Shown: positions 25,341-45,469 of the stretch, piece after piece
Layout: each line of letters starts with the position of its first letter
How positions within the stretch are numbered: position 1 is the stretch's first letter
From: Exiguobacterium mexicanum
GTDB taxonomy: Bacteria > Bacillota > Bacilli > Exiguobacteriales > Exiguobacteriaceae
NCBI RefSeq assembly: GCF_005960665.1
Contig: NZ_CP040676.1
Coordinates: forward strand, 2,543,001 to 2,607,000
DNA: 64,000 nucleotides
Reading direction: 5' to 3'
The notes under the pieces: model-generated
Databases searched by the model: none
Told to the model about the DNA's origin: nothing
The model's input: the letters and a program-made list of their open reading frames with translations, nothing else
Position numbers and translations under genes: made by a program

Positions 25341-25363
25341 CTCATTTATTTATGGTACGGCTC
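25341..25363 (-). repeat. Left attachment site: direct repeat of the rlmH 3' end
   Basis: Reads on the minus strand as codons for E-P-Y-H-K-stop, preceded by RYG, then AATGAG. It matches the real rlmH end at 45447-45469 in 20 of 23 bases in the same orientation (for example TATGGTACGGCTC against TATGATACGGCTC on the plus strand). Inverted repeats flank it: ACCTCATTTA/TAAATGAGGT and TACGG/CCGTA. Confidence 0.82.
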
Positions 25364-25411
25364 TCCGTATCGCATCTAAATGAGGTTTTTATATTTCAAC
25401 TTCAAATATAT

Positions 25412-26254
25412 TTACCTCATAGATTCAGTTACAACTTGATGAATATGCTCTACTATCGTGTCTAAAGAATATTTACTAGTGTTTAACGCAAACTTATCAA
25501 CTAGGTATGGGTTATATTCTTTCACCTGATCAAATGATACATTATGCCAAATAGGCAATATTATTATCTTCTTCTCATTAATTTCTCGATTTAAAAAACT
25601 TTTAAATTCATAGCTTGACCATCCGCTCTGTATAAAGTTTTCCGAAAGAAAAATTACAACGAATCTTGAATTTAATATTCCCATGTTCATCATTTCTGTT
25701 TGGCTTTGTCCGATCTTAAATACTTTTACGTCCTCAAATACTCTTAATCCTTTATCAGCTAATTTGTCTGACAACTCTGTCACAAATATGTCTTTGTCCA
25801 AACTAGAATGTGATAAAAACACGTCGTATTCTATAAGTTCTTTTTCTTTTACAGCTTGTTTAATATCGCTAGACAGGTCATCGAGCTTATCTTTTATCTC
25901 AATGATTTCGTCTAAATATTCTTCATTAGAATTTGTATTAGCCTTCATAGACTTCGTTAAATCGCTATACTGCTTCTTTTGCTCTTTTGCTACTTTAACT
26001 TCATATTTATTAATATTTTCTTTATTCTTTTTCAACTTTTCAATGAGTTGCGTAATATTTTTATCGTATTGTAATAGCTCATTGTTATAACTAGCTATTT
26101 TTTTTAGATCGGACTTATTTGGATTTTTTTTATTCATAAGTTTATTCAACTTAGTAAATAACTGATCTCTTTTTTTCCTCATGTCTACTAACTTCGACTG
26201 CAACTGAACATCATTCTTTACATGTCTTTTTAAACTAGTAACATTAATACTCAT
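25412..26254 (-). CDS. TIR-domain protein with N-terminal coiled coil, TirS-like
   Basis: A 280-residue protein. Residues 10-135 are Lys/Glu-rich and strongly coiled-coil. Residues 142-275 are a TIR domain: YDVFLSHSSLDKD (143-155), then GWSSYEFKSFL with the likely catalytic Glu216, then IILPIWHNVS. Bacterial TIR domains cleave NAD+ or make signal nucleotides in antiphage defence. The layout and length match S. aureus TirS, itself encoded on an SCC element. It is the terminal gene of the island next to the left attachment site, 33 bases after a membrane-protein gene in the same direction. Confidence 0.85.
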   Translation of the reverse strand: MSINVTSLKRHVKNDVQLQSKLVDMRKKRDQLFTKLNKLMNKKNPNKSDLKKIASYNNELLQYDKNITQLIEKLKKNKENINKYEVKVAKEQKKQYSDLTKSMKANTNSNEEYLDEIIEIKDKLDDLSSDIKQAVKEKELIEYDVFLSHSSLDKDIFVTELSDKLADKGLRVFEDVKVFKIGQSQTEMMNMGILNSRFVVIFLSENFIQSGWSSYEFKSFLNREINEKKIIILPIWHNVSFDQVKEYNPYLVDKFALNTSKYSLDTIVEHIHQVVTESMR

Positions 26255-26287
26255 CTATACACCCCTTCAAACAGAAGTATCATTACT

Positions 26288-26899
26288 TTATTTTACTAAG
26301 TAATACAATAAACTTTTGGCTGTATGCTTAAGTTCTAAGTTTTCCAAGAGAAGACCATTTTTTCCGTTTTCCCCCAAACTCAACTTACCTTTCACATAAT
26401 CGAAACGCTGATACTCAAGAATATAATTGGGAATCCCCTCAGGAAGATAGGTTCTGACTTCTAAAACTTGTTCATTTTTTAAATTTAGGTATTCAGCAAT
26501 AAACTTACCCCTTTTATCTTTATCAAAGTCATACTCATAAAATTTAATGTATCTCATAGGTTCAATTGAGCTTAAATAAACAGTTTCTGAATGGTCTTCA
26601 CCTAGTTCAATCACGTCGACTATGTTGTTTTTCTGATTTTCTGCATTGGATGTATAGACAACATCAATCGATTCAGTGATAAAGGTTTCTACTTTTCTAA
26701 CTAATAAATATCGACCAATCAAGTAAAAAAGAAAGAGCATTAAAGTGACAACAGAAGAAAAGAAAGATATAGCTTCTATCAGATTTAGTGTACGTAGCTC
26801 ATTTATTAATCTAGGGCTGATGTAACCAAAGACATATCCGGCTAAGAAAATTGCTATTCCTACACTAATTTTAAAGTTTCTATCACTCTTTCTTATCAT
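26288..26899 (-). CDS. Two-helix membrane protein paired with the TIR gene
   Basis: A 203-residue protein with membrane segments at about residues 11-29 and 43-66 and a cytoplasmic C-terminal domain of about 130 residues. That domain has beta-rich stretches such as SETVYLSSIEPMRYIKFYEY. I do not recognise a family. It precedes the TIR gene by 33 bases and is AT-rich like it, so the two likely form one transcription unit and possibly one defence module. Confidence 0.65.
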   Translation of the reverse strand: MIRKSDRNFKISVGIAIFLAGYVFGYISPRLINELRTLNLIEAISFFSSVVTLMLFLFYLIGRYLLVRKVETFITESIDVVYTSNAENQKNNIVDVIELGEDHSETVYLSSIEPMRYIKFYEYDFDKDKRGKFIAEYLNLKNEQVLEVRTYLPEGIPNYILEYQRFDYVKGKLSLGENGKNGLLLENLELKHTAKSLLYYLVK

Positions 26900-27110: not shown

Positions 27111-28808
27111 TTATGCAATATTCAACAACAATGAAAAAGGCGGAGGTGACCCGTCAGGATCATCTCCACCTTTGCTCGAAAAGAAGCGTATGACTTCTTC
27201 ATTCAGTTTGATTTGAATCGTCTCGATCTGGCGACTTGCATCAATCGTGATTTCTTCGACTAGGATACGCACTAAACGTTTCTGTTGCTCCACAGTCAGC
27301 GCTTCGTCATAAAGCGTCATGAAGTTGCTTAGCACGCTTTCTACAACGTCAGTATCCACTTTCAATCGATCTTGCTCACGAAGTTTCCGTGCAATCTGGG
27401 ACAGCTCATTCTTCGTCGTCTCGATGTCGAAGTCACTCGCTTCTAAGCGTTTTTGTACCTCGACTTTTTTAATCATCCCGTCTTCATAAAGACCGAATGT
27501 TTTTTCACGCTTCCTTTCCAGACTCTCTAGGCGGCGCGTCAGGTGTGCATGACGCTTCTGTAATGGCTGGATTCCCTCCTTCGCATTCTTGTTCACCGCT
27601 TCAATAAGTCCTTTTAAAAGTGACCGATCGTTTAACAACTCGCGAATACGGTTGATGACATAAGGATTCGCTTTATCAATTCGAACCCCGTTAGAGCTAC
27701 ATACAGATGATCCTTTGTTTTTCCATTGCCCACAGGCATAGTATTCAAGCACGCGCTTTTCGCCGTTCTTTCGTCGATTCGTCGTCCGGGAGAGCACCAT
27801 CCCTGCACCGCATTGCGGACACTTCATGATTCCCGTCAGCAGATAGCTGCCCGAGTGAACCCGGTTTGGCGTGTAGCTTCTTCCTTTCAACAGCTCTTGC
27901 GTTTTTTTCCATGTCTCCGCATCAATGATGGGGTCATGAATACCTTTGACGAGTACAGGATCTGGATTGATGTTGTTACGGCGTTTGGTCGCCCACTCCT
28001 GTCGAACGTTGTAGCGGATGTATCCGGCATAAAGCGGATTGGTCAGGATGGTCTTGATTCCATTGATCGAGTGCTCGCGTTTATGCTTGGTCTTGTACCC
28101 CTCACGATTCAACAGATTGGCAATAGTCTTGTAACCATCGCCCAGATTGTAAAGGGTAAATATCCGGCGCACGACCTCTGCTTCATCTGGATTGATTTCA
28201 AGAATCGTATCGCCCCGTTTCCGCATCGTGTCCCGTACTTTGATGATGTCATAGCCGTATACGACACCCCCGTTCCATCGACCACTCTGAGCGCGCTCAA
28301 TCATCCCCATTTTCACGTTCTCGGCGATGTTCTTCCGTTCGAACTCAGAGACGGCAGCCATGATGTGAAACTGAAAGCTTCCTTGTGGGGTATTCGTATC
28401 GATGTTGTCCGTGTGGGAATAAAATTCAACGTTACGTAACTTCAATGAATCAACGATGTTCAGCATATCCGTGATTTTTCGGGATAGACGATTCATTTTC
28501 CAGACGAGTACAATATCAAGTCTTCTTTCTTCAACAGCCTGAAGCATTGCCTGAAGCCCAGGACGGTTTACGACGTCCTTCCCACTAATCCCTCGGTCCA
28601 CGAACTCTTCAACGAGTTCAAAGCCTTTTTCTTCGCATACTTGACGAAGTATTTTTAATTGGGCATCGATGGAATACCCTTCATCGGCTTGCTCGACCGT
28701 GGAAACGCGGGCATAAATTGCCGCGCGCTTTCCAGTTGTCGAAGTAAAGTCCTTTTTCGAATACGATTGTTGAAGTTCTAAAATCATGTTCCCTAATGAA
28801 TTAGTCAT
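27111..28808 (-). CDS. Large serine recombinase, Ccr-type
   Basis: A 565-residue site-specific recombinase. The resolvase catalytic domain (residues 27-175) has nucleophile Ser36 in YARVSTVEQADEGYSIDAQ and the LSR signature VWKMNRLSRK. A recombinase domain (about 180-310) follows, then a zinc ribbon (Cys330, Cys333, Cys359, Cys370) and a long coiled-coil C-terminal tail. Size and layout equal CcrC/CcrB of SCC elements and phage integrases. With the attachment repeats at rlmH, excision and integration of this island is the evident role. Its start overlaps a small upstream ORF by 8 bases. Confidence 0.92.
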   Translation of the reverse strand: MTNSLGNMILELQQSYSKKDFTSTTGKRAAIYARVSTVEQADEGYSIDAQLKILRQVCEEKGFELVEEFVDRGISGKDVVNRPGLQAMLQAVEERRLDIVLVWKMNRLSRKITDMLNIVDSLKLRNVEFYSHTDNIDTNTPQGSFQFHIMAAVSEFERKNIAENVKMGMIERAQSGRWNGGVVYGYDIIKVRDTMRKRGDTILEINPDEAEVVRRIFTLYNLGDGYKTIANLLNREGYKTKHKREHSINGIKTILTNPLYAGYIRYNVRQEWATKRRNNINPDPVLVKGIHDPIIDAETWKKTQELLKGRSYTPNRVHSGSYLLTGIMKCPQCGAGMVLSRTTNRRKNGEKRVLEYYACGQWKNKGSSVCSSNGVRIDKANPYVINRIRELLNDRSLLKGLIEAVNKNAKEGIQPLQKRHAHLTRRLESLERKREKTFGLYEDGMIKKVEVQKRLEASDFDIETTKNELSQIARKLREQDRLKVDTDVVESVLSNFMTLYDEALTVEQQKRLVRILVEEITIDASRQIETIQIKLNEEVIRFFSSKGGDDPDGSPPPFSLLLNIA

Positions 28809-28899
28809 TTTTCGTCTCCGCCTCTCTGTTCGCTTGTTGGTACAGCACCATGTCCTTGAGAATATTTGCTAGTTCGTTTGCTTGAGTGTCGATGTGCAT
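28801..28899 (-). CDS. Small ORF translationally coupled to the recombinase
   Basis: A 32-residue ORF, MHIDTQANELANILKDMVLY and on to ETKND. AAGGAG lies 10 bases before its ATG (28897-28899), and its stop overlaps the recombinase ATG by 8 bases. It begins 14 bases after the DUF927 gene. The arrangement suggests a real peptide or a leader that couples translation. A second ATG in another frame lies only 3 bases from the ribosome site and is less likely. Confidence 0.5.
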   Translation of the reverse strand: MHIDTQANELANILKDMVLYQQANREAETKND

Positions 28900-28913: not shown

Positions 28914-30923
28914 TTAAATGTCGTCTCCGTCTTGCGGGGGAAGTTCAACGTCAATCAATTGCAAGTCAGCTTCAATTTGCTGCACTCGGGTCTGCTGAGA
29001 ACCAGGGTGTTCCCATTGAGGTCCATATCGAAGGCTTAACTCGGCCTCGGTAGGCAGATAATCATCAAAAGTTCCAGACTCAAAAGTGACCCGATACCCT
29101 GTCAATCGATCGTTGCCTAATGTCTTCGTTCGTGAAGTAATGCGATCACTGTCTGAAACGATGAAGCCTTTGGACTTCCACTCTTTCAAAACCACCTTCG
29201 GACTCGTATAACCCGCCTTTCTGAAAAACTCATGAAGATGTTCTTGCAGTATGAATACTTCGAATCGACTCGGATGTCTGATGGGTTTGATCTCACCTAA
29301 GACGTCATTACTCACAGGACGGTATGAGTCATATTTAAATTTCCGAATGTGTGTGATGACATAGTTGCGGAATTGATCGTATGCGGTGTTCGCAATATCA
29401 AGGGTCTTCAACTGCTCTTCAAAGATGTGCACCATCATATCGCGAAACTCCTGAAACTCTCTTGAAACTCGCGCTTGATCATCCTCTGCTGATTTGAAGA
29501 AGTATGAATATGCTAAACGAATCGATAAATCTAACGTGGCAAACATCGGCGATAGTCGGTTCACGTAATTGCTCGAATTCGATACGAGTGCTTCATAGCT
29601 GTCGCGAGTCCTGTTCCAAGAAGCCAATACTTTCTTAGGGTCAATACGGAGCAAGCCTTCAGCAAAGATTGGTCCCAATATTCCATGATGCTCATGAATT
29701 ATTTTTGAGACAGTCTCAGCGACTTCTTTCGATGGCATAAAATTGAGATCGGTGACCTCGATAGCGCGAACGGAAACACCTGCATTCTTAACATTGCGTC
29801 CATGTCGATCCAAGTTCCGTAGGCTTTGCTCACCTGTGGATACGCAAATCGTCGCAAAAACGGCTCGTGGTCTTTGTCGGGAATCACGCCCTAATCTCGC
29901 ACGTTCTTCACCGTTCGAAAACTGATAAATCATATCTGACGCATCACGGGACGCCATCGAAGACTCATCGATGAGTACAGGTAGACCGAAGTTTCCTTGA
30001 AAACCGTTCAACAGTGCATTAGGTGTCGCATCCCACGATGTCTTAAGAGGCGCCTCTAACGGACTACCGCCAACACTGACAGCCAATTTTGCGGCTGTGG
30101 TCTTCCCTGTCGAGCTGTTCCCATGCAGATGGATGATGTAGTTGAGAAGGTCTGGCTTTTGTAACTTAAGATAGCCATGTAACAAGGCAGAGAATCCGAT
30201 TGCTAGTGCGAATTTGACTTCCTTGTGCGGAAACAGTACTTTCAGTCGTTGAATGAGATCATCCGCATTGCCTTTTACCGTCACCGCTTTACGATATCGC
30301 TCACTCACCTGACTTTCCGTTATAAAGAGTTCACCCGTTTCTGTACGCTCGTACTCGTAAGCTTGATGGGCAAACAGTATCGAGTCTCCATCGATGCGTT
30401 TTTGCTTACGAAATCCTACATACTCGTGGATGGAGTTATGGGTAAGTTCATTGATTTGGAGCATCAGATAGTGAGCAAGTAACGGCTTATTGCCAGGAGT
30501 CGGATTGATGACTACCCCGAGGCTAGATAGATTGGACGACACCCCTTCATTGATACTTTGAGACGAGAGTTCGAGTTCATACCACTCTAAACCCTGTAAT
30601 TTGTATGCGATGGTCGCGATCAGCTCTCCTGTGATGCTGTTTCGTGTCACACTGCGTACATACATCGGGGTACATAAGCGTTTACGTGCAGGCATATAGT
30701 CATCGTAGTCCTTATCGTACTTCATCGCGTAAACACCCTTTGGATTTAAAAGGAACTCAGGTCCGTCCTCGTAGTGCATGAGATACTGACCGTCTGTAAA
30801 TACCGATTGATAGTCTATGTGCTCCACCTGCTCGTCTGGTATCGTTTCATACGATTCTGCAATTGACTCGTCGTACTCGTGTGCTTGCGGTTCGTGTTCG
30901 TTTCGTTCGGATAAATGCGACAT
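28914..30923 (-). CDS. DUF927-domain ATPase (SCC-type)
   Basis: A 669-residue protein. The N-terminal 220 residues are acidic and of unknown fold. The DUF927 P-loop ATPase core (about 225-480) has Walker A HGNSSTGKTT (267-276) and Walker B LPVLIDE (314-320). A winged-helix-like C-terminal part may bind DNA. In SCC elements DUF927 proteins and Cch helicases lie directly upstream of ccr genes and are thought to help the element replicate or transfer. Here it is likewise the gene before the recombinase, in one operon. Confidence 0.85.
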   Translation of the reverse strand: MSHLSERNEHEPQAHEYDESIAESYETIPDEQVEHIDYQSVFTDGQYLMHYEDGPEFLLNPKGVYAMKYDKDYDDYMPARKRLCTPMYVRSVTRNSITGELIATIAYKLQGLEWYELELSSQSINEGVSSNLSSLGVVINPTPGNKPLLAHYLMLQINELTHNSIHEYVGFRKQKRIDGDSILFAHQAYEYERTETGELFITESQVSERYRKAVTVKGNADDLIQRLKVLFPHKEVKFALAIGFSALLHGYLKLQKPDLLNYIIHLHGNSSTGKTTAAKLAVSVGGSPLEAPLKTSWDATPNALLNGFQGNFGLPVLIDESSMASRDASDMIYQFSNGEERARLGRDSRQRPRAVFATICVSTGEQSLRNLDRHGRNVKNAGVSVRAIEVTDLNFMPSKEVAETVSKIIHEHHGILGPIFAEGLLRIDPKKVLASWNRTRDSYEALVSNSSNYVNRLSPMFATLDLSIRLAYSYFFKSAEDDQARVSREFQEFRDMMVHIFEEQLKTLDIANTAYDQFRNYVITHIRKFKYDSYRPVSNDVLGEIKPIRHPSRFEVFILQEHLHEFFRKAGYTSPKVVLKEWKSKGFIVSDSDRITSRTKTLGNDRLTGYRVTFESGTFDDYLPTEAELSLRYGPQWEHPGSQQTRVQQIEADLQLIDVELPPQDGDDI

Positions 30924-31296
30924 TCCTCATATCCCCTTTTAGTTAATGTCCGGGCCCGGTAGACACACTATATGGCATGGATTTGTATAAAGGGAATAGA
31001 AAAACAACAAAAACTTTTCGCCCCGCTGTTGCTAGGGGTTTTGCATCCTCGCCGTCGTAAGTGCCTGTCCTGCTATCGATAAAACCGGAGGATTTTTCTT
31101 GATAGATGGAGTATTTTATAATAATTGAAATATTCAGTTATTTATAATTATTCAATTTTTACCTGATTATAAGATTATTCGAGTAAAAAAAATAGCGAAT
31201 CATGATTAAAAATCCATAATTCGCTACACCCCATTCATTTGTGTCTAATTATTGAAATCGTGAGATTGATAATAACTTTGCACAGCTCTTTCATCT
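30924..31296. other. Non-coding AT-rich region before the DUF927-recombinase operon
   Basis: No gene seen. It holds the promoter region of the DUF927 operon, a GC-rich short hairpin (CCCC-N10-GGGG then TTTT, near 31021-31043), a very AT-rich stretch with short inverted repeats (about 31120-31180), and a terminator (31185-31226). AT-rich DNA beside an element-encoded ATPase makes an origin of replication conceivable, but nothing proves it. Confidence 0.4.
31185..31226 (-). terminator. Terminator of the radC operon
   Basis: Perfect 8-bp stem TAGCGAAT/ATTCGCTA with an 18-base loop, followed by eight T on the minus strand. Confidence 0.6.
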
Positions 31297-31548
31297 TCAT
31301 TCCTCCGATAACTTTAAATAATAAGACAGATACAGCGCCACCATATTGCGATCTTCAGCAGACAATTGACTCAATACTTGTCTGACCACACCCTCATCGA
31401 TATCCGTCCCATCCGACACGTATTCCTCCATCAAGATGTCTTTCATCGCATCTTCATCCCAGATGCTATCCGAGTCCGCATTGATCCATGCGTCCGACTT
31501 GCAATAGACTTCCTCGCCGTCAATCCAAATTCGTTGATACTCGTTCAT
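31297..31548 (-). CDS. Hypothetical acidic protein of the element
   Basis: An 83-residue, strongly acidic protein (MNEYQRIWIDGEEVYCKSD), third and last gene of the radC operon, 3 bases after the previous gene. Family unknown. Acidic small proteins in such operons can be DNA mimics or anti-restriction proteins, but no motif supports that here. Confidence 0.6.
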   Translation of the reverse strand: MNEYQRIWIDGEEVYCKSDAWINADSDSIWDEDAMKDILMEEYVSDGTDIDEGVVRQVLSQLSAEDRNMVALYLSYYLKLSEE

Positions 31549-31551: not shown

Positions 31552-31845
31552 TTATTCCTCCTCGATTAGTTGAATCAGTTTCAGTTCGTCACGTTGATAG
31601 ATGACCAGACACGTTCTTTGCTCATCACGTATGAGATGGACCAGATATTCTTTATACAGATACGTCTCAAGCAGGACCCGGTTTCCCGTTGTTTTTTCGA
31701 TTTCATCAGGTAAGAAGGACAGGTCCAACTCCTCTTTATCAAATTCGAATGCCTCGCTGACAATCAGGTCCCACCACACCTCATCCGATTTATCCACATA
31801 CATAAGAGCGCGGTCGATAATCGTTCTAGCATCATCCATCAGCAA
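31552..31845 (-). CDS. Hypothetical acidic protein of the element
   Basis: A 97-residue acidic protein rich in Glu, Asp and Leu. Its start overlaps the end of the radC-like gene by 7 bases, so it is translationally coupled. Family unknown. Confidence 0.6.
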   Translation of the reverse strand: MLMDDARTIIDRALMYVDKSDEVWWDLIVSEAFEFDKEELDLSFLPDEIEKTTGNRVLLETYLYKEYLVHLIRDEQRTCLVIYQRDELKLIQLIEEE

Positions 31846-32294
31846 TGCCCTCTTTCTTTCAATGAGACATATCCTTCTGTGCCGATAATCAAATGATCGA
31901 GCAACGGAATGCCGATTAAGTCTCCCGCCTGTGCCAAGCGCTCTGTGACCGATACATCTTCTCCACTAGGTTCACAGTCGTCAGACGGATGGTTATGACA
32001 CACCATAATGCACGCTGCGTTCGAGAGAATGGCAGACTTGAACACTTCACGAGGGTGAACTATGGACGCACTTAATGAGCCGATATGGACCGTCTCTAGC
32101 ACGACTGGTTCGTTCTTCATATTTAACCCCATCAGCACAAAATGCTCACGATCAAGGTCACCCATATAATTACGGAACAAAGAAACCGCATCACCTGGTG
32201 AGGTGATGCGGCGTTTAGCGTATAGTATTGATTTTTCTCTTACCAACTTTAGTGTAACGATAGGGATTCGTTTTTTTGGTTCATTGCTCATCAT
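31839..32294 (-). CDS. RadC-like JAB/JAMM-domain protein
   Basis: A 151-residue protein of the short RadC family found on mobile elements. The JAMM metal site is CHNHPSDDCEPSGED (about residues 99-113), preceded by an upstream Glu in VLETVHIGS. It lacks the N-terminal helix-hairpin-helix of chromosomal RadC. Short RadC proteins are common in SCC and other islands; their biochemical role is not settled. First gene of a three-gene operon, divergent from the restriction-modification gene. Confidence 0.87.
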   Translation of the reverse strand: MMSNEPKKRIPIVTLKLVREKSILYAKRRITSPGDAVSLFRNYMGDLDREHFVLMGLNMKNEPVVLETVHIGSLSASIVHPREVFKSAILSNAACIMVCHNHPSDDCEPSGEDVSVTERLAQAGDLIGIPLLDHLIIGTEGYVSLKERGHC

Positions 32295-32475
32295 ATTACC
32301 TCCTCAAATATTCTCAAGGAAATAATATATATTTAAAATTATCATTAAATTCGGAATTGACTAGAGGCGCTCTTATTCACATCAGTTTAGTCTGTATATG
32401 TTCTACAGAACTACCTTGTACGACTTGAACTGTATGCTAAAATTTAATTACTACATGTTTTGGAGGCTAGTAAAT

Positions 32476-35400
32476 ATGAAAGAACTATCTGAAGAAAAAG
32501 CAATACAACATTCCTTCGATACCCTCATTCGTTCGCTGGAGGGCGATCGCATGGTTCAACGAGATCGGGGCACACTTTTCGAATTATTAGTTGTAGCTTA
32601 CCTTAAAAATGAACCAATGTATGCGCGCTTGTTCGATGAGGTATGGATGTTACATAACGTTCCTGAAGATTATAAAATCCCTAAAAAAGATACAGGGGTT
32701 GATTTGGTTGCAAGGAACCGTGAAACTGGAAAACTCGTCGCAATTCAATGTAAATATTATTCGAAAGATACTACTATCCAAAAATCTCATATCGACTCTT
32801 TCTTGAACGAAGTTGGGAAAAGTTATTATGACGAGGGTATCATCGTTACGTCTACTGACAAGTGGAGTGATAACGCCAATAACGCTTTATTAGACCGAGA
32901 TAAGAGCATTGCTCGAATTGGACTTTCTCAATTACGAGATAGCGAAATTGATTGGACTCAGTTTTCAACAGAAAAACCTCAAAACATTCCGCTAAAATCC
33001 ATTAAAGAGCCACGTTCACACCAAATTCCTGCTATTGAAGCTGTAATCAATGGCTTTAAATCAGCTGATCGCGGAAAATTAATCATGGCTCCTGGAACAG
33101 GAAAAACGTATACCTCGATGGTTATCGCAGAAGAAATGGCTTCTAAAAAAGAAGGTCCTTTCCGTGTTCTTTATCTTGTTCCGAGTATCCAACTACTTTC
33201 TCAATCGCTTCGTGGATGGACAAGTGATTCAAAGTATAGACAGGACATGGATACGTTCGCAGTATGTTCGGACCGTAAGGTGACAAAACGCGTTAAAGGT
33301 GCAGATGAGTTTGAAGATATTGCGGCTGCTGATTTAGGTTATCCTGCGACTACTGACTACAACAAATTGATTGAGCGACAAAACGATATCGACTCATCTG
33401 AACATCAAAGCAAATTTTTGGTCGTCTTTTCTACATATCAATCTATCGATGTTATTATCGACGCACAAAAACATGGGTTCTATGAATTCGACTTAGTAGT
33501 CTGTGATGAAGCACACCGAACAACTGGTGCAACGGACGCTGGAAAAGATGCTAGTGCCTTCGTTAAAGTCCATAGCGATGATAACATCAGAGCTCGTAAA
33601 CGCCTCTATCAAACTGCGACTCCTCGTATCTACGGTGAAGATGCAAAGCAAAAAGCTGATGAAATGTCTGTTCTAATCGCAGACATGAATGACGCGAATA
33701 TTTATGGGGAAGAATTTTATCGCATTGGCTTTGGCGATGCTGTAAACAAAGGCATTTTAACAGATTACAAAGTCATGGTTCTCGCAGTTGATCAAAAGAT
33801 GGTTGAGCGCAATTTTCAAAAAATGATGTCAAAAGACTCAGAACTCGAATTTGATGATGTAACTAAAATCATTGGCTGTTGGAACGGACTTGTCAAAAGA
33901 CAAAGTCATTCAAATATAATATCAGCTAATCCAATGAAACGCGCGATTGCTTTTGCCGGAACCATCAAAGATTCCAAATTGATTACTGACATGTTTACAA
34001 ATGTTGTAGACATGTACATCAACGAATCTGGGTATCAAGCGGATCCCGTACGTATTCAAATCGAACATGCAGATGGATCAATGAATGCTTTACAAAAGAA
34101 CGAGAAAATATCATGGTTAAAATCTGAAGTTCCACCAAACACATGTCGTATCCTCTCAAATGCCCGTTTCCTAACTGAAGGAGTCGATATCCCAGATCTT
34201 GACGCAGTCATGTTTTTAAAGCCTCGTAAATCTAAAATCGATATTGCCCAAGCAGTAGGTCGAGTTATGCGGAAAGCCGATGGGAAAGAATATGGGTATG
34301 TCATTCTACCAATCGGAATTCCAGCAGGCTTTGATGAGAATGCAATTTTAGATAAAAATGAAAAATATCAAGTTGTGTGGGACGTTCTTAATGCATTACG
34401 TTCTTTAGATGAACGTTTTGACTCCACAATCAATAAATTAGAGCTTAACAAAAAGAAGCCTGATCAACTTCAGGTCGTAGGTGTGGGAGAGGCGCCTGAC
34501 GAGGACGACGGCGGTTTTAAAATTGCTGATCCGGAGACAGAACAGCTTCAATTCGGACTTGATATGGAAGAGTTTTCCGATATTGAGCGAGCTATTTATG
34601 GGAAAATCGTCAAAAAAGTTGGCAATGTGCGTTATTGGGAAGATTGGTCAAAAGACGTATCAGAAATCGCACAGCAGCATATCACACGCATCCAAGTTAT
34701 GATTGAGGATACTAATAATCAGGCATATCATGCCTTTAAGCAATTTGTTTCTGGACTCAGACACAACATCAATGAATCAATTTCAGAGCAACAAGCGATT
34801 GAGATGCTAGCACAACATCTGATCACCAAACCTGTTTTTGAAGCATTATTTGACTCATACAGTTTCGCTAAAGATAATCCTGTTTCTCAGGCAATGGATG
34901 CTGTATTAAGCGTCATGGATGAAAAAGGATTAATCAAGGAGCAAGAGCGACTTGAAAAATTCTATGAGAGTGTTCGTATTCGCGCAGAAGGTATAGACAA
35001 TCTTAAAGCGAAGCAAGACATCATTATTCAACTTTATGATAAATTCTTCAAAGTTGGATTCAAAGAAACAACAGAACGCCTTGGAATAGTATTTACTCCT
35101 GTTGAAGTAGTGGATTTCATTATTCATTCAGTAAATGACGTGTTACAAAAACACTTTGGTAAATCTATTGGAGATGAAGGTGTAAATATTTTAGACCCCT
35201 TCACGGGAACGGGAACATTTATCGTTCGTCTATTGCAAAGTGGACTAATTTCAAAAGAAGACTTGCTGCGTAAGTATACGCAAGAGCTTCATGCTAATGA
35301 AATCGTACTTTTAAGTTATTACATTGCAGCAATCAATATTGAGGAAACCTTCCATGCAATATTAAAACAAGAATATCAACCTTTCGAGGGAATCGTTTTG

Positions 35401-37601: not shown

Positions 37602-37632
37602 AAACACCTTTAATTAAGGAGGAATGGAATAA

Positions 37633-37981: not shown

Positions 37982-38030
37982 GAATAGTGATTTGACTTGA
38001 AATTAGACAATGATAAAGGGAGGGCTCAAC

Positions 38031-39947
38031 ATGAGTAAGTCAAAATGGTGGAAACAACCAAGAACGGTATTGCTGATTATTTCAGGGATCACAACAGTCT
38101 TTACATTAATCTCAGAACTTTTCCTAGGTTTACCGGAAATATGGGCTGTTGCATTGTATGGTGTTGCAATTATTATTGGGGGTATTTACCCAGCCAAGAG
38201 TGCATGGATGGACTTGAGAAGGAGAAAACTTTCCATAAATACTCTGCTTATTGTCGGAGTTATCGGGGCCATCTATCTGGGATTGTGGGAAGAAGCCGCA
38301 GGTCTTGTGGTCATCTTCTCCTTAGCTGAAGTGTTGGAAGCTTATGCAGTAAATAAAGCCAGGGATTCCGTCCGAGCGCTTGTGGAACTGGCACCCCGGG
38401 AAGCAACCGTTTTACGGGAAGGCCGCGAAGTTCGCATACTAGCCGATGAAGTCGAGATTGGCGATCGGGTTCTGATCCGACCAGGGGAGAAAATACCAGT
38501 AGATGGGGTTGTTGTAAGCGGTACGTCTACAGCGGATCAATCGACAATCACAGGAGAATCCATTCCGGTTGCAAAAATATCAGGCGATGAAGTATATGCT
38601 TCCACAATGAATGGCCGCGGTGCTTTGGAAATTGAAGTGACGAAATTGGCGCAGGATACCACCTTGTCAAAAATCATTGAATTAGTGGCAAATGCACAAG
38701 GAGATAAAGGAAAAGCACAACGTTTCAGTGAACGCTTTGGTGAAGTCTACACGCCGATCATGTTCGTGATCGCCGTTTTAATGGTTGTTATACCAACCCT
38801 TTTCTTTGGCCAACCGTTTGACACGTGGCTATATAGAGCGTTAATCGTATTGGTTGTTTCATGCTCCTGTTCTCTAGTGCTTTCAGTTCCAGTAGCTGTC
38901 GTAACTGGTGTAGGAAATGCGGCGCGAAACGGGGTTATGGTAAAAGGCGGCAGCTATATGGAAACGGCCAGTCACATCCAAGTGGTCGCATTTGATAAAA
39001 CGGGTACATTAACCGTCGGAAAGCCTTCGGTAACGGATATTGTATCTGTCTCCGATTTATCAAAAGAAAAACTGCTGGGAATTGCCGGTGCGCTTGAAAA
39101 ACTTTCTGAACACCCTTTGGCTGAGGCAATTCTTCAAGAAGCTTCAAAAAGAAACATAAATCTTCCAGGTGTTGAAGAGTTCGACACATTAACCGGACGG
39201 GGAGCTAAAGGCAGCATAAATAGAACCACATACTATATCGGCAGTCCCCGGTTGTTCAGCGAATTGAATGTAAAACTGAATCAAGATCAATTAAAACAAA
39301 TTGAAACACTTCAAGGACAAGGAAAGACCGTCACGCTTTTGGGAACTGCTGATCTTGTACTTGGATTAATCGCGATAGCGGATCGACCGAAAGAAAACGC
39401 AAAACAAGCGATTCAACGTCTGAAAACTACCGGTGTAAAACGAATCGTCATGCTTACGGGCGATAACCGGCTTACTGGTGAAGCCATTGGCCGGGAACTT
39501 GGCGTGGATGAGGTACGGGCAGAATTACTGCCGGAAGATAAAATTACAGCGATTAAAGAACTGCAAAAGAAGTACGGTCTTGTTGCGATGGTGGGTGACG
39601 GTGTAAACGATGCGCCTGCACTGGCTCAGGCCGATGTGGGGATCGCGATGGGAGTCCAAGGGACAGACGTTGCTTTGGAAACGGCTGATATCGCATTGAT
39701 GCAGGATAATTTGGATCAACTGGTTTATCTGATCAAACTTAGCCGTAAGACCGTTGCGAAAATACATCAAAATATCGGGTTTTCATTAGCTCTTCTAGCC
39801 CTCCTTATTGTTACAGCCTTGACCGGAGTGATGAGCCTGACTACAGGTTTGCTTCTTAACGAAGGAAGCGCCTTGGTTGTTATTGCAAATGCGATGGTTC
39901 TCCGGAAGTATCAGATGAATAAAGCCAATGCCATAGGTAACGAGTGA
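38031..39947 (+). CDS. P1B-type metal-transporting ATPase with an atypical CSC motif
   Basis: A 638-residue heavy-metal efflux-type ATPase. Visible parts: actuator TITGES (172-177), phosphorylation site DKTGT (Asp322) and hinge GDGVNDAP. The sixth membrane helix normally has CPC; here it is VSCSCSLVLSVPVAV, with Cys278-Ser279-Cys280. The last helix has NEGSALVVIANAM in place of the Cd/Zn-type DxG, closer to the HEG of P1B-4 pumps. There is no N-terminal HMA domain. Metal specificity is therefore open, though sequence around it is CadA-like. ATG 38031 follows AAAGGGAGGG. Confidence 0.88.
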   Translation: MSKSKWWKQPRTVLLIISGITTVFTLISELFLGLPEIWAVALYGVAIIIGGIYPAKSAWMDLRRRKLSINTLLIVGVIGAIYLGLWEEAAGLVVIFSLAEVLEAYAVNKARDSVRALVELAPREATVLREGREVRILADEVEIGDRVLIRPGEKIPVDGVVVSGTSTADQSTITGESIPVAKISGDEVYASTMNGRGALEIEVTKLAQDTTLSKIIELVANAQGDKGKAQRFSERFGEVYTPIMFVIAVLMVVIPTLFFGQPFDTWLYRALIVLVVSCSCSLVLSVPVAVVTGVGNAARNGVMVKGGSYMETASHIQVVAFDKTGTLTVGKPSVTDIVSVSDLSKEKLLGIAGALEKLSEHPLAEAILQEASKRNINLPGVEEFDTLTGRGAKGSINRTTYYIGSPRLFSELNVKLNQDQLKQIETLQGQGKTVTLLGTADLVLGLIAIADRPKENAKQAIQRLKTTGVKRIVMLTGDNRLTGEAIGRELGVDEVRAELLPEDKITAIKELQKKYGLVAMVGDGVNDAPALAQADVGIAMGVQGTDVALETADIALMQDNLDQLVYLIKLSRKTVAKIHQNIGFSLALLALLIVTALTGVMSLTTGLLLNEGSALVVIANAMVLRKYQMNKANAIGNE

Positions 39948-39992
39948 TGAAATTTTTTATCATTGGTGAGGATTTACCTATGGATTGGCATT

Positions 39993-40014
39993 CTAATCAA
40001 AAATAATTGATTAG
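39993..40014 (+). promoter_or_regulatory. Metal-regulator operator O5
   Basis: CTAATCAA-AAATAA-TTGATTAG, perfect 8-base arms, 16 bases before the MtrA-like gene. Best copy of the five. Confidence 0.65.
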
Positions 40015-40030
40015 CATACAAGGAGAGTTG

Positions 40031-41410
40031 ATGATGGGCATAACAGAAGGCATTAAAAGCATTCATAAACAATTAGACACAATACGAAAGATCCCTAAAT
40101 GTGTAGGATGTGAATGTGTACTTGACGTGATGACAGCCGTTGAGCAAGATCTAGAAGATATAGATAAACCGATTGCAAAAGAAGTTCAACTGGATTTAAA
40201 ACAGTGGGTTGACGAAGGGAACAAAGTTAGACATAACTGTCTTGGGTGTGAAGTTTGTTTCCCAATTAAGCCGTACAATCATTTTAGTTCATTGATTAAT
40301 GGATCGAATGAAATTGAAATCAATGGAGCTGCATGTGGCTGTAATGACAATGCATGCGGAAGTCAACCCCAAGTAAACAGTACTGCGTGTGGGTGTGATG
40401 ACGATTCGTGCGAAGGTGAACCACAAGTAAATAATACAGCATGTGGTTGTGATGAAAATAAATCGAAGAATACGCACCCCTCAAATTGCAGCTGTGAACT
40501 TAAAACCGAAGTTCAGAAACAATCCGTTTGTGGAACAGTGGATCCCAACGATAGCAATGTGGCCTCCCCCTCGACCCAGCAGGAACAAAAATGGCCAATA
40601 GCAGAAGGAAATTATCTAGTCGGAAATGATACATCTTTTGTTGCAATATGTACTTTAGCCGATACAGATCTCCCGTCCGAAATACAAGGTTCCGGATTAC
40701 TAAATCATATATCTATTGTTGGTACCTTATCGACAGAAAATCTAGGAATAGAACGCTTGATTCGAAATGTTACCGCGAATCCCAATATTTCACACTTAAT
40801 ACTATGTGGGCGCGACTCTCGTGGTCATCAAGCAGGGCAAGCCATTTTGTCATTAAAAGAAAATGGGATAGACGATAAGTATCGGATTATAGGCGCAGTT
40901 GGACCTCGCCCGGTGCTCAAGAATATTACCTTGAAAGAGATCGAAATTTTTCGCCAACGAGTGAAAATCGTTGATGAAATTGGAACACGAGATGTCGAAC
41001 GATTGCATCAGGTAGTTCGTGCTTATGAGGGCAAGCCAAATGGGGACCCAGTAATGCTTCTTCCGATAATTCAAGAACCCAAAATAGTGAAAGCAGAACG
41101 TCTTAAAAATGATGAGTGGGTTCATGACCCAGAGGGATTTTTCCTAGTTATTCTTGATCGAAATAAGAAATCAATTAGGTGTGAACATTACATCCTGGAT
41201 GGGACTCTGAATGAAGTTATTGAAGGAAAACTAGCCAGTGATATTGCAAATACAGCAATCAAGCGCGGTTTGCTTTCTCGTTTGGATCACGCAGCATATC
41301 TGGGGAAAGAATTGGCGAAAGCTGAAACAGCTCTTGCCTACGATATGCCTTATACGCAAGATTTACCGTTATCAAAAAGTAAAGCCCTCAATCAAACGGT
41401 TGTTTCCTAG
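40031..41410 (+). CDS. Cysteine-rich protein with MtrA-like corrinoid-binding domain and DUF4346-type tail
   Basis: A 459-residue cytoplasmic protein. Residues 1-80 have two cysteine clusters (KCVGCEC, NCLGCEVC). Residues 101-155 are an 18-residue repeat ACGC-N4-C. From Trp188 it resembles subunit A of methanogen tetrahydromethanopterin S-methyltransferase: WPIAEGNYLVGN, STENLGIERLIRNVTANPN, LILCGRDSRGHQAGQ. His266 lies at the place of the MtrA histidine that binds cobalt of the corrinoid. The C-terminal 120 residues resemble DUF4346. No membrane anchor. Under operator O5, so probably metal-induced. ATG 40034 is an alternative start. Reaction unknown. Confidence 0.78.
   Translation: MMGITEGIKSIHKQLDTIRKIPKCVGCECVLDVMTAVEQDLEDIDKPIAKEVQLDLKQWVDEGNKVRHNCLGCEVCFPIKPYNHFSSLINGSNEIEINGAACGCNDNACGSQPQVNSTACGCDDDSCEGEPQVNNTACGCDENKSKNTHPSNCSCELKTEVQKQSVCGTVDPNDSNVASPSTQQEQKWPIAEGNYLVGNDTSFVAICTLADTDLPSEIQGSGLLNHISIVGTLSTENLGIERLIRNVTANPNISHLILCGRDSRGHQAGQAILSLKENGIDDKYRIIGAVGPRPVLKNITLKEIEIFRQRVKIVDEIGTRDVERLHQVVRAYEGKPNGDPVMLLPIIQEPKIVKAERLKNDEWVHDPEGFFLVILDRNKKSIRCEHYILDGTLNEVIEGKLASDIANTAIKRGLLSRLDHAAYLGKELAKAETALAYDMPYTQDLPLSKSKALNQTVVS
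40331..40492 (+). repeat. Three tandem 54-base units encoding cysteine-rich repeats
   Basis: Units begin ACGCNDNACG, ACGCDDDSCE and ACGCDENKSK, spaced exactly 18 codons (Cys102, Cys120, Cys138). The first two end PQVNST and PQVNNT; the third has diverged. The pattern resembles metal-chelating modules. Confidence 0.75.
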
Positions 41411-41505
41411 ATGAATAGAACGATTATTCAATTAGTTTAAAATCTGTTATACGAGAAACGATTAGTATTTAAAGAGCTAACTTACTAGATGTAGAAGGTG
41501 ACACA

Positions 41506-42843
41506 ATGGAGATTCTAAACCTCCCCCACTTCAATATCAAACAATTTGCTGAAAATGAACATGACTTTCTGATCCAGGTGGAGACAGCCTCTCCACCTTC
41601 TTTTTGTCCACATTGTGGATGCGTGGCAAATCTGTATAAGCATGATAACAGAGACCATCTTTGTATGGATCTGCCTATTCATGGAAAACGTGTAGGGCTT
41701 CTTGTAAAGCGTCAGCGATATAAATGCCGTGAATGTAATCAAACTTTTTGGGAACGATTAGAACACACCATAGACGAGAAGCGAAACTGCACCAAACGGT
41801 TATTGTCTTACGTCGAGAAGCAAAGTCTTAAACGCACGTTTGTCAGTATTTCAGAAGATGTCGGGCTGAACGAAAAGACGATACGGAACATCTTTCGTGA
41901 TTACATCAATCGCCTGGAAGAGACGCTTCGATTTGAAACACCTAATTGGCTTGGAATAGACGAAATTCACATTATCAAGCCAAGATGCGTTTTAACCAAC
42001 ATCGAGGAACGTACCTTGTTAGACGTTCTACCCAATCGCAATAAGGAAACGGTTGTAAGCTACCTCTCACGCCTTCCAAACAGAGGACGAATACAATACG
42101 TCACAATGGATATGTGGCGACCGTATAAGGACGCTGTGAAAGCTGTACTGCCCAAGGCGACTATCATCGTCGATAAGTTTCACGTTGTCCGTATGGCGAA
42201 TCAAGCCTTAGAATCCATCCGCAAACAGCTTAGAGAAGGCTTATCACCGAAGGAACGGCGCGGGCTTATGCACGACCGCTTTATCCTCTTGAAACGCCAT
42301 AAAGAGCTTACGGAAATGGATAAGATAACGCTTGACCTATGGACGAAGAATCACCCCTCTCTCGGTATTGCTTATGACTTGAAGGAATCATTTTTCGATA
42401 TTTGGGATACCGACAGCAGACAGAAAGCGTACCTCAGATACCACGATTGGAAAGCCAAGATACCAAAGGAACTGCAATCCGCTTTTGAGCCTCTTACAAA
42501 GGCTATGGCGAATTGGGAAGAAGAGATATTCAACTACTTCGACCATCGCATTACAAACGCCTATACGGAGTCTCTGAACAGCCTTATACGTGTCACAAAC
42601 CGTTTAGGAAGGGGCTACTCCTTCGAAGCTTTACGAGCCAAAATACTCTTTACAGAAGGACTTCAAAAGGAACGTAAACCCAAGTATCAGAAACGTTTGG
42701 ATGACTACGAACTTCGAGACTACAACTATCCGATGTTCGAGAAAATGTTCCCCGTTGGCGTTGTTCGTGAACGTGAGCGTGGCGAGCTTCTTGGTGTCGA
42801 CATTTCCACCTTAATTGAGAAATTGGAGAAGGGCGAACTATAA
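41506..42843 (+). CDS. ISL3-family transposase
   Basis: A 445-residue DDE transposase. Residues about 30-85 form the zinc-binding N-terminal domain (FCPHCGC and KCREC). The DDE core includes WLGIDEIHI, VTMDMWRPYKDAV, IVDKFHVVRMANQAL and NAYTESLNSLIR. It looks intact. I find no terminal inverted repeats around it, so the limits of an insertion sequence cannot be set; it may be a gene of a larger transposon that carries the metal cluster. The 3' end overlaps the end of the convergent STAND gene by 6 bases. Confidence 0.9.
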   Translation: MEILNLPHFNIKQFAENEHDFLIQVETASPPSFCPHCGCVANLYKHDNRDHLCMDLPIHGKRVGLLVKRQRYKCRECNQTFWERLEHTIDEKRNCTKRLLSYVEKQSLKRTFVSISEDVGLNEKTIRNIFRDYINRLEETLRFETPNWLGIDEIHIIKPRCVLTNIEERTLLDVLPNRNKETVVSYLSRLPNRGRIQYVTMDMWRPYKDAVKAVLPKATIIVDKFHVVRMANQALESIRKQLREGLSPKERRGLMHDRFILLKRHKELTEMDKITLDLWTKNHPSLGIAYDLKESFFDIWDTDSRQKAYLRYHDWKAKIPKELQSAFEPLTKAMANWEEEIFNYFDHRITNAYTESLNSLIRVTNRLGRGYSFEALRAKILFTEGLQKERKPKYQKRLDDYELRDYNYPMFEKMFPVGVVRERERGELLGVDISTLIEKLEKGEL

Positions 42844-42852
42844 GCCCTTTTC
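42829..42852. terminator. Short hairpin shared by convergent gene ends
   Basis: AAGGGC-N9-GCCCTT then TTCC; contains both stop codons. Confidence 0.4.
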
Positions 42853-45174
42853 CACTATTAAATCCGAATACCCTAAATTTAGAACTTCTTCTCCATTTTC
42901 AATAAAAACTTCAGAGTCTTCATTCAGAAATTCTTCTTCATACTTATAAATTATTCTCCCCTTACTTTTAATTTTATTTTCCAATAACAATGCCAATAGT
43001 CGAATTGATCTTATTTCACATTTCTTAAGCATCGATTTTAAGTCAAGATAAGTATCAGCCATTTCAGGAAATCGATTATAAAATCTCATTCGTAATTCAA
43101 ATAACTCGTCTGTATCTTGGTTTATATCATACATAAAAAATTTTAAGAGCTTATTATCATCCTCCCGTGAATTAAATAAATATTTTTCAATGAAATTAAT
43201 ATCGTCAGTTTCATAATTGGGGCTCATACTAACAAGTAATTTTATAACAAGCTCTTTTTTTGACGGATTGTTAAGCCATTTTTCTAAAATCCCGTGTTCC
43301 CGAAGTAACTGAATATATTTAGGTCTTGAATATAATACGTTTTTTATAAGAGGATTATTGTAAATTACATTTTCACAGGAGTTCAAGATAAAATACTGTA
43401 TATTTCTATCTGGATTTTCTATCTGACTTAGTATTTCTAAGAATACAAATTTAAAAAAATACCGAACTTGCTCTGCTTCAAATATTCTTTGCCCAACACT
43501 AACAAAATCTTGGCTATCAAATTCATATAAATTCTGCATAAACATCTGAACTTGATATCTTCTTCCAGGAGTTTGTTTCTCTTTACTTCCAATAATATCA
43601 ATGACATCTTCACCGTTATAATATCTCTGAAGCATTTTTTCAGCTAAAAAACAATCCAATATAGATTGATGGGCAAACGATACTTTATTATCTTGAATTA
43701 TTAAAAAAGCATTTGAAGATAAAAATTCTAAAGATGATTTATTTTCGTTTAAAATAGTTAAAGGAATGAATATTCTACCATTCATTTCTAAAAAATTTAC
43801 CATTTTATCTTTAATCTGAATTAGATTGTTTTCTTCTAATCCATACTCGAAACATTTATATGATAACTGCTCCCACCATTTGGACACTAAATGGCTCGCA
43901 GTAGAACATTCCTCATAAACTTTAGTTGGATCTAATCGTTGCCATATATACAAATTACTTGGAATTTCCAGCATTTTTTTTAGTTTATAAGTAAGCTGTT
44001 CATAACGCTTCCCAACAGTACTTTTTACTAAATCCTCGTCTAACTCATTAACTTGAATCTTAGACCATTGAATGACATCCTCATCCGAATCACCTTTTTT
44101 AAATAATGAATTTATATTATTATCGTTTTCTAAGTCATGTGTTCGACATACGAAAACGATGGATATTTTATTTTCCCTCTCAATGTTCAATTTCCTAACC
44201 TGATTTATAATCTCGGCGCATACCAATAAAGCATCTCTAGAGTGTGCCACAGTCCAACGTAGTGCATCCAATTGATCTAGAATGATTACTGCTCTTTCAT
44301 TTTTAGAAATATTGTGAATAGAATATGTAACCGATGCAGGTAATCCTAAATCTTCCCCCCATTTTTCTGCAGTCATGCTTGGAATCCGTTTATCTAATTT
44401 TATTGCCAAATACGGTAATGCTTTTTCTTCACAGAAATTAATAATATCTAATGTACATCCACTTTTTCCTCTACCAGCCTTTCCATGTATTATCAAGGAA
44501 TTACCTGAATCTATCGTTTCTCTGCACATAGAAAATTCTTTTCGATTGATTAACCCACTTTTCAATGGAATAAATGCTGCTTTATATTCCTGATTTAATT
44601 CCATAAGCCTGAGCTTTATTAGTTCATCTACTTCAAGGTTTTTAGAACTACTTAGAAATGGTTCTGAACTAAATTTTTCTTCAATAGTTTTTACAAGATT
44701 ACTTTCTAATTTACCCATTGACTCATCAAATATTGATAGAGTAGCCTTCTCTTTAACACTCAATAATGATTCACGAAAATCAACTAGTACATCGAACAAA
44801 TCAGAAAAGTACTCTTCAAAATCATCTGGTTTTTTAATGTGTGAATGATCATATTTATCTCTCTTAAAATTGACAAACTCGACAGCTTCTATTCCCAATT
44901 CTTTAGAAAATTCTTTATAATTTCCTCTTGGGACATTGTAAGCATTAAATATCCTCTGCATTATCTTATTACTAATATGATTTTGTTCTAGAAAATCTAT
45001 AAAATACTTACTATCAACCTCAGTACCATCAAATTTCCAATTAAAGTCATTAACTTTATCCTCTATTTCTTTAATCAACTTTTTTTCCTCTTTATTTGAT
45101 AACCCACTTGATAAAATATAACCCGCAATATTTGGTGCTATTAAAGTTCCTGCTATGTATATTAAAAAGCTCAT
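42838..45174 (-). CDS. STAND-type P-loop NTPase, candidate defence protein
   Basis: A 778-residue protein. A hydrophobic N-terminal helix (residues 1-23) is followed by a helical region of 180 residues, a NACHT/STAND ATPase (Walker A GKAGRGKSG 231-239, Walker B AVIILDQLD 295-303, FVCRTHDLE sensor) and helical repeats to the end. STAND ATPases act as phage sensors and death effectors in bacteria. The effector is not recognised; membrane insertion through the N-terminal helix is possible. Very AT-rich. It ends inside the transposase gene end, so a longer C-terminal sensor may have been cut off. First gene of the island after rlmH. Confidence 0.72.
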   Translation of the reverse strand: MSFLIYIAGTLIAPNIAGYILSSGLSNKEEKKLIKEIEDKVNDFNWKFDGTEVDSKYFIDFLEQNHISNKIMQRIFNAYNVPRGNYKEFSKELGIEAVEFVNFKRDKYDHSHIKKPDDFEEYFSDLFDVLVDFRESLLSVKEKATLSIFDESMGKLESNLVKTIEEKFSSEPFLSSSKNLEVDELIKLRLMELNQEYKAAFIPLKSGLINRKEFSMCRETIDSGNSLIIHGKAGRGKSGCTLDIINFCEEKALPYLAIKLDKRIPSMTAEKWGEDLGLPASVTYSIHNISKNERAVIILDQLDALRWTVAHSRDALLVCAEIINQVRKLNIERENKISIVFVCRTHDLENDNNINSLFKKGDSDEDVIQWSKIQVNELDEDLVKSTVGKRYEQLTYKLKKMLEIPSNLYIWQRLDPTKVYEECSTASHLVSKWWEQLSYKCFEYGLEENNLIQIKDKMVNFLEMNGRIFIPLTILNENKSSLEFLSSNAFLIIQDNKVSFAHQSILDCFLAEKMLQRYYNGEDVIDIIGSKEKQTPGRRYQVQMFMQNLYEFDSQDFVSVGQRIFEAEQVRYFFKFVFLEILSQIENPDRNIQYFILNSCENVIYNNPLIKNVLYSRPKYIQLLREHGILEKWLNNPSKKELVIKLLVSMSPNYETDDINFIEKYLFNSREDDNKLLKFFMYDINQDTDELFELRMRFYNRFPEMADTYLDLKSMLKKCEIRSIRLLALLLENKIKSKGRIIYKYEEEFLNEDSEVFIENGEEVLNLGYSDLIVEKGL

Positions 45175-45345
45175 TTTCTACCTCCTATTCGATGCTTATA
45201 AACAGTGCTATTAAAAAGGCGACGCTTACCAATAACCTAGATTCCCTAATGCAATTATATGATTAATTATCAATAATTAATCATTAAAAACTTTTAGTAT
45301 CTTTTTTAAATATTTTAGTACAAACTAGCTAATTTAGTGATATAA

Positions 45346-45386
45346 AATAAGCTCTCAAATCTATATCAAAGATTTGAGAGCTTATT
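45346..45386 (-). terminator. Strong hairpin between rlmH and the STAND gene
   Basis: Perfect 17-bp stem (45346-45362 with 45370-45386) and 7-base loop, TTTTATAT after it on the minus strand. It gives rlmH a new terminator inside the island. Confidence 0.65.
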
Positions 45387-45446
45387 CGTAATTACTAAAT
45401 ATGAAGCGGAACCTCATGAACATTATATGAAAATCAGCGTAAATTT

Positions 45447-45469
45447 CTCACTTACTTATGATACGGCTC
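45447..45469 (-). repeat. Right attachment site at the rlmH 3' end
   Basis: Covers the codons for E-P-Y-H-K-stop of rlmH plus seven bases. Direct repeat of 25341-25363 with three mismatches, all transitions. SCC attachment sites of staphylococci lie over the same last codons of rlmH. Confidence 0.82.

Follow-up and report, generated by a model that had tools for sequence, protein, structure and literature searches.

The window, i.e., the whole stretch of 64,000 nucleotides that was analyzed, carried a 20106-bp SCC-like integrative element (25364-45469; about 20.1 kb) between two putative crossover positions, the proximal one inside the 3' end of rlmH. The reading frame of this host target gene was kept intact. 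Pfam recognized between the repeats the large serine recombinase, the DUF927 protein and the short RadC named in the initial annotation, and the island also held small ORFs, putative defense genes and a heavy-metal transposon (Table 1). An Rfam scan of 24000-47000 gave no match at E ≤ 1.

Table 1. Features of the rlmH island, with positions in the window, strand and basis of assignment.
Feature	Positions	Strand	Basis or remark
Distal att site, second copy of the rlmH 3' end	25346-25363	-	GAGCCGTACCATAAATAA; pattern search
Distal inner end with CTAAATGAGGTTTTT	25364-25400	+	Resembles distal ends of relatives; 92% identity to congener G001 over 50 bp
TIR-domain protein, putative anti-phage effector	25412-26254	-	Pfam TIR_2 E 1.7e-16; PADLOC candidate PDC-S66 E 4.1e-55
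203-aa protein, two long predicted N-terminal helices	26288-26899	-	No family found (Pfam, NCBIfam, PADLOC, PHROGs)
Ccr-like large serine recombinase, 565 aa	27111-28808	-	Pfam resolvase, recombinase and zinc-ribbon domains; NCBIfam; tree; PHROGs
32-aa ORF overlapping the ccr start, possible micro-ORF counterpart	28801-28899	-	Position only
Cch-like helicase, precedes the recombinase	28914-30923	-	Pfam DUF927 and Cch C-terminal HTH
83-aa ORF	31297-31548	-	Homologous to an ORF in relative G176; phmmer E 2.8e-10 (set of 113 ORFs)
97-aa ORF	31552-31845	-	Match to a single member of a ~105-aa family (phmmer E 3.4e-4); 17-24% identity in alignment
Short RadC with a JAB domain; first in the conserved module	31839-32294	-	Pfam E 2.6e-41; 54-60% identical in 9/10 relatives
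Type ISP restriction-modification enzyme, C-terminal specificity domain truncated	32398-36789	+	Pfam Type_ISP_C positions 1-225 of 342
ISL3-family heavy-metal transposon	36760-42873	+	ArsR-type regulator, HMA protein, heavy-metal P-type ATPase, MtrA/DUF4346 protein
NTPase-like protein, 778 aa, possible defense gene	42838-45174	-	PADLOC PDC-M54A E 1.3e-8
Proximal att site inside the rlmH 3' end	45452-45469	-	GAGCCGTATCATAAGTAA; pattern search
rlmH, host target gene	45452-45931	-	Pfam SPOUT_MTase E 1.5e-57

Limits of the island and empty sites

The repeat of the rlmH end proposed initially was confirmed. The terminal 18 bases of the gene were present twice in the same orientation, as direct repeats with two differing positions. 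A degenerate pattern, GAGCCGTAYCATAARTAA, had exactly two matches in the 64 kb, each with 0 mismatches, although it was built to fit both att copies and is hence biased towards them; its chance expectation with up to 3 mismatches in the 64-kb window was 0.16 matches. The rlmH end itself matched the distal copy with 2 mismatches. When the island was shuffled 100 times by mononucleotides, the closest match came to 3 mismatches in one shuffle and to 4-6 in all others. The two copies of the rlmH end are not a product of chance. The element-type extension before the distal att site, TACGGWGA, was found at five places in 4 of the 19 genomes of the genus, and its reversed control at none.

Tandem islands with several att copies do occur among relatives, e.g., in Lysinibacillus sphaericus (G442, locus L101), where six rlmH-end copies within 19 kb after rlmH look like a tandem array of islands. 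The window could likewise hold a composite of two neighboring insertions instead of one element, yet no third att copy was found inside the island, the best other match having 5 mismatches, like most shuffles, and a composite is very unlikely.

As had been predicted for relatives free of the island, the site was empty in 2 of 18 same-genus genomes (G018, locus L009, and G008, locus L017), where the left flank of the window lay directly after rlmH. The hairpin at 25297-25336, a perfect 18-base stem, had a similar counterpart directly after rlmH in both. The alignment with G008 ran to window position 25363 and resumed at 45448 with a 23-base query overlap, so that the island alone is missing there. 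The same flanking gene was located about 0.7 kb after rlmH in two other congeners (G010 and G004), and the flank was not found in the remaining 14 within the 1.5 kb examined after rlmH; the reach beyond rlmH was 20 kb in 5 of the 18 congeners and 1.5 kb in the rest. The left flank (23851-25363) was 99.1% identical to G008 over 1515 bp, and the rlmH side just 86.9% over 1983 bp, a difference which suggests that the flank was exchanged between species.

Both empty sites read TACCATAAATAA, as the distal copy does, whereas the proximal copy reads TATCATAAGTAA; the block GAGCCGTA is common to both att copies. Bases after this block therefore look chromosomal at the distal end and element-borne at the proximal end, and the crossover probably lies inside the shared block. 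The block starts with GA, and GA is the central dinucleotide required by CcrAB, according to the excerpts of PMC10581047. A crossover at this place would give an element of 20106 bp that has swapped the 3' end of rlmH for its own. The size of about 20.1 kb given in the initial annotation therefore stands, while its limits (25341-45469) shift to 25364-45469. At E ≤ 1e-60, the recombinase was found in 1 of 38 genomes of the family, the window's own only, which implies that the island was gained recently or is often lost.

Recombinase, helicase and small core genes

In an alignment, the recombinase kept the serine position and the NRLSR motif as in CcrB, both of which we take to be catalytic. Its NCBIfam scores were below all cut-offs (CcrB, 389 bits against 900; CcrC, 316 against 900; CcrA, 108 against 700), and its match to the phrog_95 integrase in PHROGs (451.5 bits) exceeded that to the CcrB profile. 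Nucleotide identity to six staphylococcal ccr genes (two each of ccrB, ccrC, and ccrA) was 42-50% over aligned columns. A 50% threshold for a ccr gene is mentioned in the excerpts of PMC10581047.

Phylogenetic analysis of 58 proteins placed the recombinase with rlmH-associated Ccr-like proteins of other Bacilli in a clade of 16 rows with 100/100 support, and not with unrelated phage integrases, the grouping that the initial annotation had named as a refutation. The clade consisted of the window and 15 Ccr-like rows, 14 of them distinct (L040 and L068 are the same genome, so that the 16 rows represent 15 distinct proteins), apart from staphylococcal CcrA (6), CcrB (8), and CcrC (5). Five phage integrases branched outside the CcrB, CcrC and Ccr-like rows, and that branch had 85/85 support only. 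The tree covered neither 25 of the 55 places found with the CcrB profile, for which no locus was fetched, nor both L050 genes, CcrA of L047 and L053, and CcrC of L076, L078, and L082. By cut-offs and tree, the recombinase is thus none of CcrA, CcrB or CcrC, one of which a strict staphylococcal definition of SCC includes, and the proposed membership in the SCC family holds for the SCC-type island at rlmH and not for the class of its recombinase.

The helicase scored 134.8 bits with NCBIfam Cch1 (cut-off 700) and higher, 154.6 bits, with the primase/helicase family phrog_8841; it matched a solved helicase, PDB 5dgk ('Active helicase', Cch structure), at E 2.7e-25. Though it lies below the Cch1 cut-off, its DUF927 domain, Cch HTH and 5dgk match agree with the Cch or Cch2 helicase operon that precedes ccr in the strict definition. 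No ORF of at least 60 aa was present in 30924-31296 on either strand, and no primase was recognized, nor a remnant of one in 30900-31320. A Pol-SSB pair before the helicase was not recognized either, the core ORFs of relatives matching 30924-31296 at most over 9 residues (E 0.09); as far as the excerpts of PMC10061031 go, this pair is the basis on which its examples were selected and not a definition of SCC-like elements.

The 97-aa ORF is probably, judging by its phmmer match, a divergent member of the ~105-aa family present in 9 of 10 relatives. The structure model of its product had a mean pLDDT of 83. Its identification as SAUGI was rejected, since Pfam gave no SAUGI match, Foldseek found nothing at E ≤ 0.001, and the top PDB hit by sequence was a ribosomal protein (E 0.12). 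The model of the 203-aa protein was of low confidence (mean pLDDT 51). None of SAUGI, DUF960 and DUF1643, which belong to the strict definition of SCC, was recognized in the 83-, 97- and 203-aa ORFs of the window.

The PHROGs scores of the recombinase and the helicase raise the question whether the island is a prophage or phage satellite with a serine integrase that targets rlmH by coincidence. Phages often carry large serine recombinases (at E ≤ 1e-5, that of the window was matched by 1393 of 50697 phage records), and not only the recombinase but also the helicase, RadC and the TIR protein matched PHROGs families; a phage-hub model on the NTPase-like protein reached just E 0.07. However, all 1393 phage records were below 60% identity, with 27-35% among the matches listed (n = 20), compared to 48-52% for nine Ccr-like proteins of Bacilli. 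No head, tail, packaging or lysis family was detected among 10 island proteins with PHROGs, or with Pfam and NCBIfam at E ≤ 0.001, and the five phage integrases fell outside in the tree. A phage integrase is disfavored by phage identity, tree and PHROGs scan, and a phage origin of the island is highly improbable.

Ccr-like elements in other genomes and the micro-ORF before ccr

Ccr-like genes were common in the class and, where on the same contig, almost always beside rlmH. The CcrB profile at E ≤ 1e-80 detected 46 of 398 genomes of the class (the name Bacilli is inferred for this set), 11 of them presumed Staphylococcus and 35 outside it, including the window's own; group f10/g11 was taken as Staphylococcus by inference, as it contains all 9 genomes over the CcrB cut-off. 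Of the 55 places found, 12 belonged to presumed staphylococci and 43, the window included, to other genomes. Up to 60 kb downstream of rlmH lay 7 of the former and 33 of the latter; 3 of the former were elsewhere, as was 1 of the latter, on the same contig, and 2 and 9, respectively, were on other contigs. With the window excluded, 32 of the 33 non-staphylococcal places on the rlmH contig were within 60 kb downstream of the gene, the 9 on other contigs completing the 42. CcrB was opposite to rlmH in all 7 rlmH-proximal staphylococcal hits, as were 22 of the 33 rlmH-proximal hits outside staphylococci.

All nine named relatives had rlmH upstream on the ccr contig, at ~4-30 kb and on the same strand. 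Ten relatives shared the order rlmH - (RadC in nine) - helicase - Ccr; Ccr followed on the strand of rlmH in 10/10, RadC lay in between in 9/10, and 9/10 had an additional copy of the rlmH end. In these relatives, 8/10 proximal and 8/9 distal ends carried the motif AARTGAGGTT; the window had it at the distal end only. At the loci of the nine named relatives, the helicase before ccr was of DUF927 (3) or D5/DUF5906 type (4), or had no Pfam family (2). Small ORFs beside RadC in relatives were DUF960 in 3/3 tested (cluster of 4) and DUF1643 in 2/2 tested (cluster of 7). Of 15 staphylococcal genomes searched, 3 had a short RadC no more than 3 kb from ccr, placed after the recombinase.

Two decayed elements were also observed. 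Congener G001 (locus L116, 16712-19500) held a remnant of a related element within ~2.7 kb of rlmH, with the same distal end (50 bp, 92%) and 252 bp of 79% identity covering the ccr 3' end and the sequence that follows. The genome of the window itself contained another SCC-like island, also decayed, ~670 kb from rlmH (L122, 2264-16020; G000:C4:1904263-1918019). Its two rlmH-end-like sites shared one orientation and were separated by 13.7 kb; one was exact and of element type and the other had 1 mismatch, a level at which the reversed control gave 3 genome matches. It contained pieces of a broken Ccr-like recombinase (CcrB profile, 220 bits) and of transposases, type III-like restriction genes, and a DISARM-DrmD-like SNF2 helicase.

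A conserved micro-ORF of 31-75 aa preceded ccr in all 14 distinct clade relatives (all 15 non-window rows of the clade); it often overlapped the ccr start and had a motif resembling I-L-x-E-M-V. A profile built from 9 seed ORFs before ccr was applied to the window and 45 loci, together 5469 ORFs. The inclusion threshold was passed by 17 ORFs, among them 8 non-seeds (1 identical to a seed, 2 nearly identical to each other). These 17 covered all 15 non-window clade rows (14 distinct; 9 seeds) and two rows outside. All were on the ccr strand, and their positions ranged from 507 nt ahead of ccr to an overlap with its predicted start of up to 118 nt, a case in which that start is possibly misplaced. 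At the ccrAB or ccrC loci of staphylococci, the profile gave no match better than E 1. The 32-aa ORF of the window scored 2.0 bits (E 64), so that its equivalence is positional and unsupported by sequence. In a codon comparison of six micro-ORF pairs, non-synonymous changes exceeded synonymous ones in 6/6; purifying selection was not shown, which counts against certainty that the micro-ORFs are genes. At L041, L067, and L040 (one genome with L068), micro-ORF and ccr were separated by a resolvase-domain gene of 159-192 aa that has no serine at the aligned catalytic position. It is a speculative and rather doubtful proposal that the micro-ORF is an unrecognized core gene of non-staphylococcal Ccr elements, maybe the missing directionality or control factor, with the serine-less resolvase-domain gene as a second regulator in some and the divergent 32-aa ORF in this slot of the window. 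Literature searches for such a small factor before ccr, including the excerpts of PMC3783163, showed none among the papers listed. The micro-ORF thus offers a concrete candidate, open to testing, for what controls the direction of Ccr recombination.

Cargo, mobility and comparison with known systems

The TIR protein also matched phrog_15646 (function unknown; E 1.2e-52), and a 62% identical copy was found after Ccr in Metasolibacillus (locus L039). The NTPase-like protein, by inference of STAND type, had no Pfam family at E ≤ 0.001 and weak matches in 10 plasmid records, one annotated NACHT; the last codons of its gene are within the transposon. The specificity domain of the type ISP enzyme stops where the transposon begins, and this restriction enzyme is probably now broken. 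Over 6115 bp, the transposon was 100.0% identical to a copy on pA30H1, a plasmid from Planococcus strain ANT_H30. The plasmid copy was flanked by an 8-bp target duplication and the window copy by none, suggesting a deletion beside the transposon. Similar AT-rich repeats preceded three of the transposon genes, and its MtrA/DUF4346 protein (40007-41410) had repeated Cys-rich stretches in the N-terminal part.

The island is thus very probably an integrative mobile element of SCC type, and the rlmH-targeted island with Ccr-like recombinase and Cch-like helicase proposed at the outset is supported. The recombinase would integrate the circular form by joining its att site to the terminal codons of rlmH, and its reverse reaction would excise the element. 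The element would provide a replacement 3' end, so that RlmH stays whole. Replication of the excised circle, or of the incoming strand, is probably the task of the helicase. The remainder would be cargo, i.e., putative phage defense (TIR, NTPase-like, type ISP) and a heavy-metal transposon acquired recently. Points against the SCC-type reading are the proximal end without AARTGAGGTT, the lack of a recognized primase, the scores of the recombinase below every Ccr cut-off, the higher bits of phrog_95 over CcrB and of phrog_8841 over Cch1, and the 85/85 support of the branch separating the phage integrases.

Some of these traits would also fit a dead remnant, immobile and kept as a defense and metal-resistance island. 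The proximal end has diverged, no primase was recognized, the transposon truncated one gene, perhaps two, and related elements have decayed in G001 and at the second place in the same genome. Nevertheless, the recombinase and the helicase have kept their full length and their motifs, the block in which crossover is placed is common to the two att copies, and the island is confined to one of the 38 family genomes; a remnant seems unlikely, if less so than the other alternatives weighed above. The element is real, the mechanism set out for an SCC-type mobile element is well supported by its anatomy, and its novelty is moderate.

The initial annotation had expected the host range of the family to be widened. 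SCC-like elements at rlmH are, however, already in print for other Bacillota, as excerpts of PMC10061031 and PMC10581047 show, so that the kind is known and the element of the window is an added member. In the excerpts of PMC10061031, most Pol-SSB pairs sit in SCC-like islands after rlmH, empty sites are given for Bacillus cereus and B. wiedmannii, and a DUF927 helicase with one large serine recombinase is described in Bacillus subtilis, B. mycoides, and Geobacillus vulcani; hosts of such islands in those of PMC10581047 include Enterococcus faecium, B. cereus, and G. vulcani. Exiguobacterium was absent among the Table 1 rows in the excerpts of PMC10061031. Literature searched for Exiguobacterium with cassette chromosome, ccr or rlmH did not yield this element; the excerpts of PMC8407400 present Exiguobacterium as the origin of a resistance gene carried on a plasmid and not as that of an SCC-like island.

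Like the Bacillota elements in these excerpts (PMC10061031, PMC10581047), that of the window has a Ccr-related large serine recombinase adjoining a helicase (DUF927 or other), a place after rlmH (as in most examples of PMC10061031), a second copy of the rlmH end with an empty site in relatives, and conflict cargo of restriction-modification type; it differs in its cargo and in that a Pol-SSB pair was not recognized. With staphylococcal SCC pattern 1, LP1413-Cch-CcrAB, one of two patterns in the excerpts of PMC7581432, it shares the DUF927 Cch helicase before the recombinase and the integration in the last codons of rlmH with direct repeats. The 18-bp imperfect repeats read GAAGC(A/G)TATCATAA(G/A)TGA in S. 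brunensis (PMC10581047, excerpts) and GAGCCGTA(C/T)CATAA(A/G)TAA in the window. Unlike pattern 1, there is one recombinase, outside CcrA/B/C, and RadC lies before it, not after it; in strand, the recombinase differs from CcrB and agrees with a CcrC hit in G125. DUF1643 and DUF960 are named as parts of the staphylococcal ccr complex in the excerpts of PMC10581047. The CcrDE islands of staphylococci in the same excerpts likewise combine a Ccr-type recombinase with SCC-like core genes, but lie in rimL and have two recombinases. With its clear limits and its empty sites, the present element extends the set of SCC-like elements known from environmental Bacilli. Seen in this way, the cassettes of staphylococci resemble a single branch within a broader family that carries defense and metal resistance. 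Its architecture resembles that of methicillin-resistance cassettes at the same chromosomal address in another bacterial family, with anti-phage and heavy-metal cargo instead.
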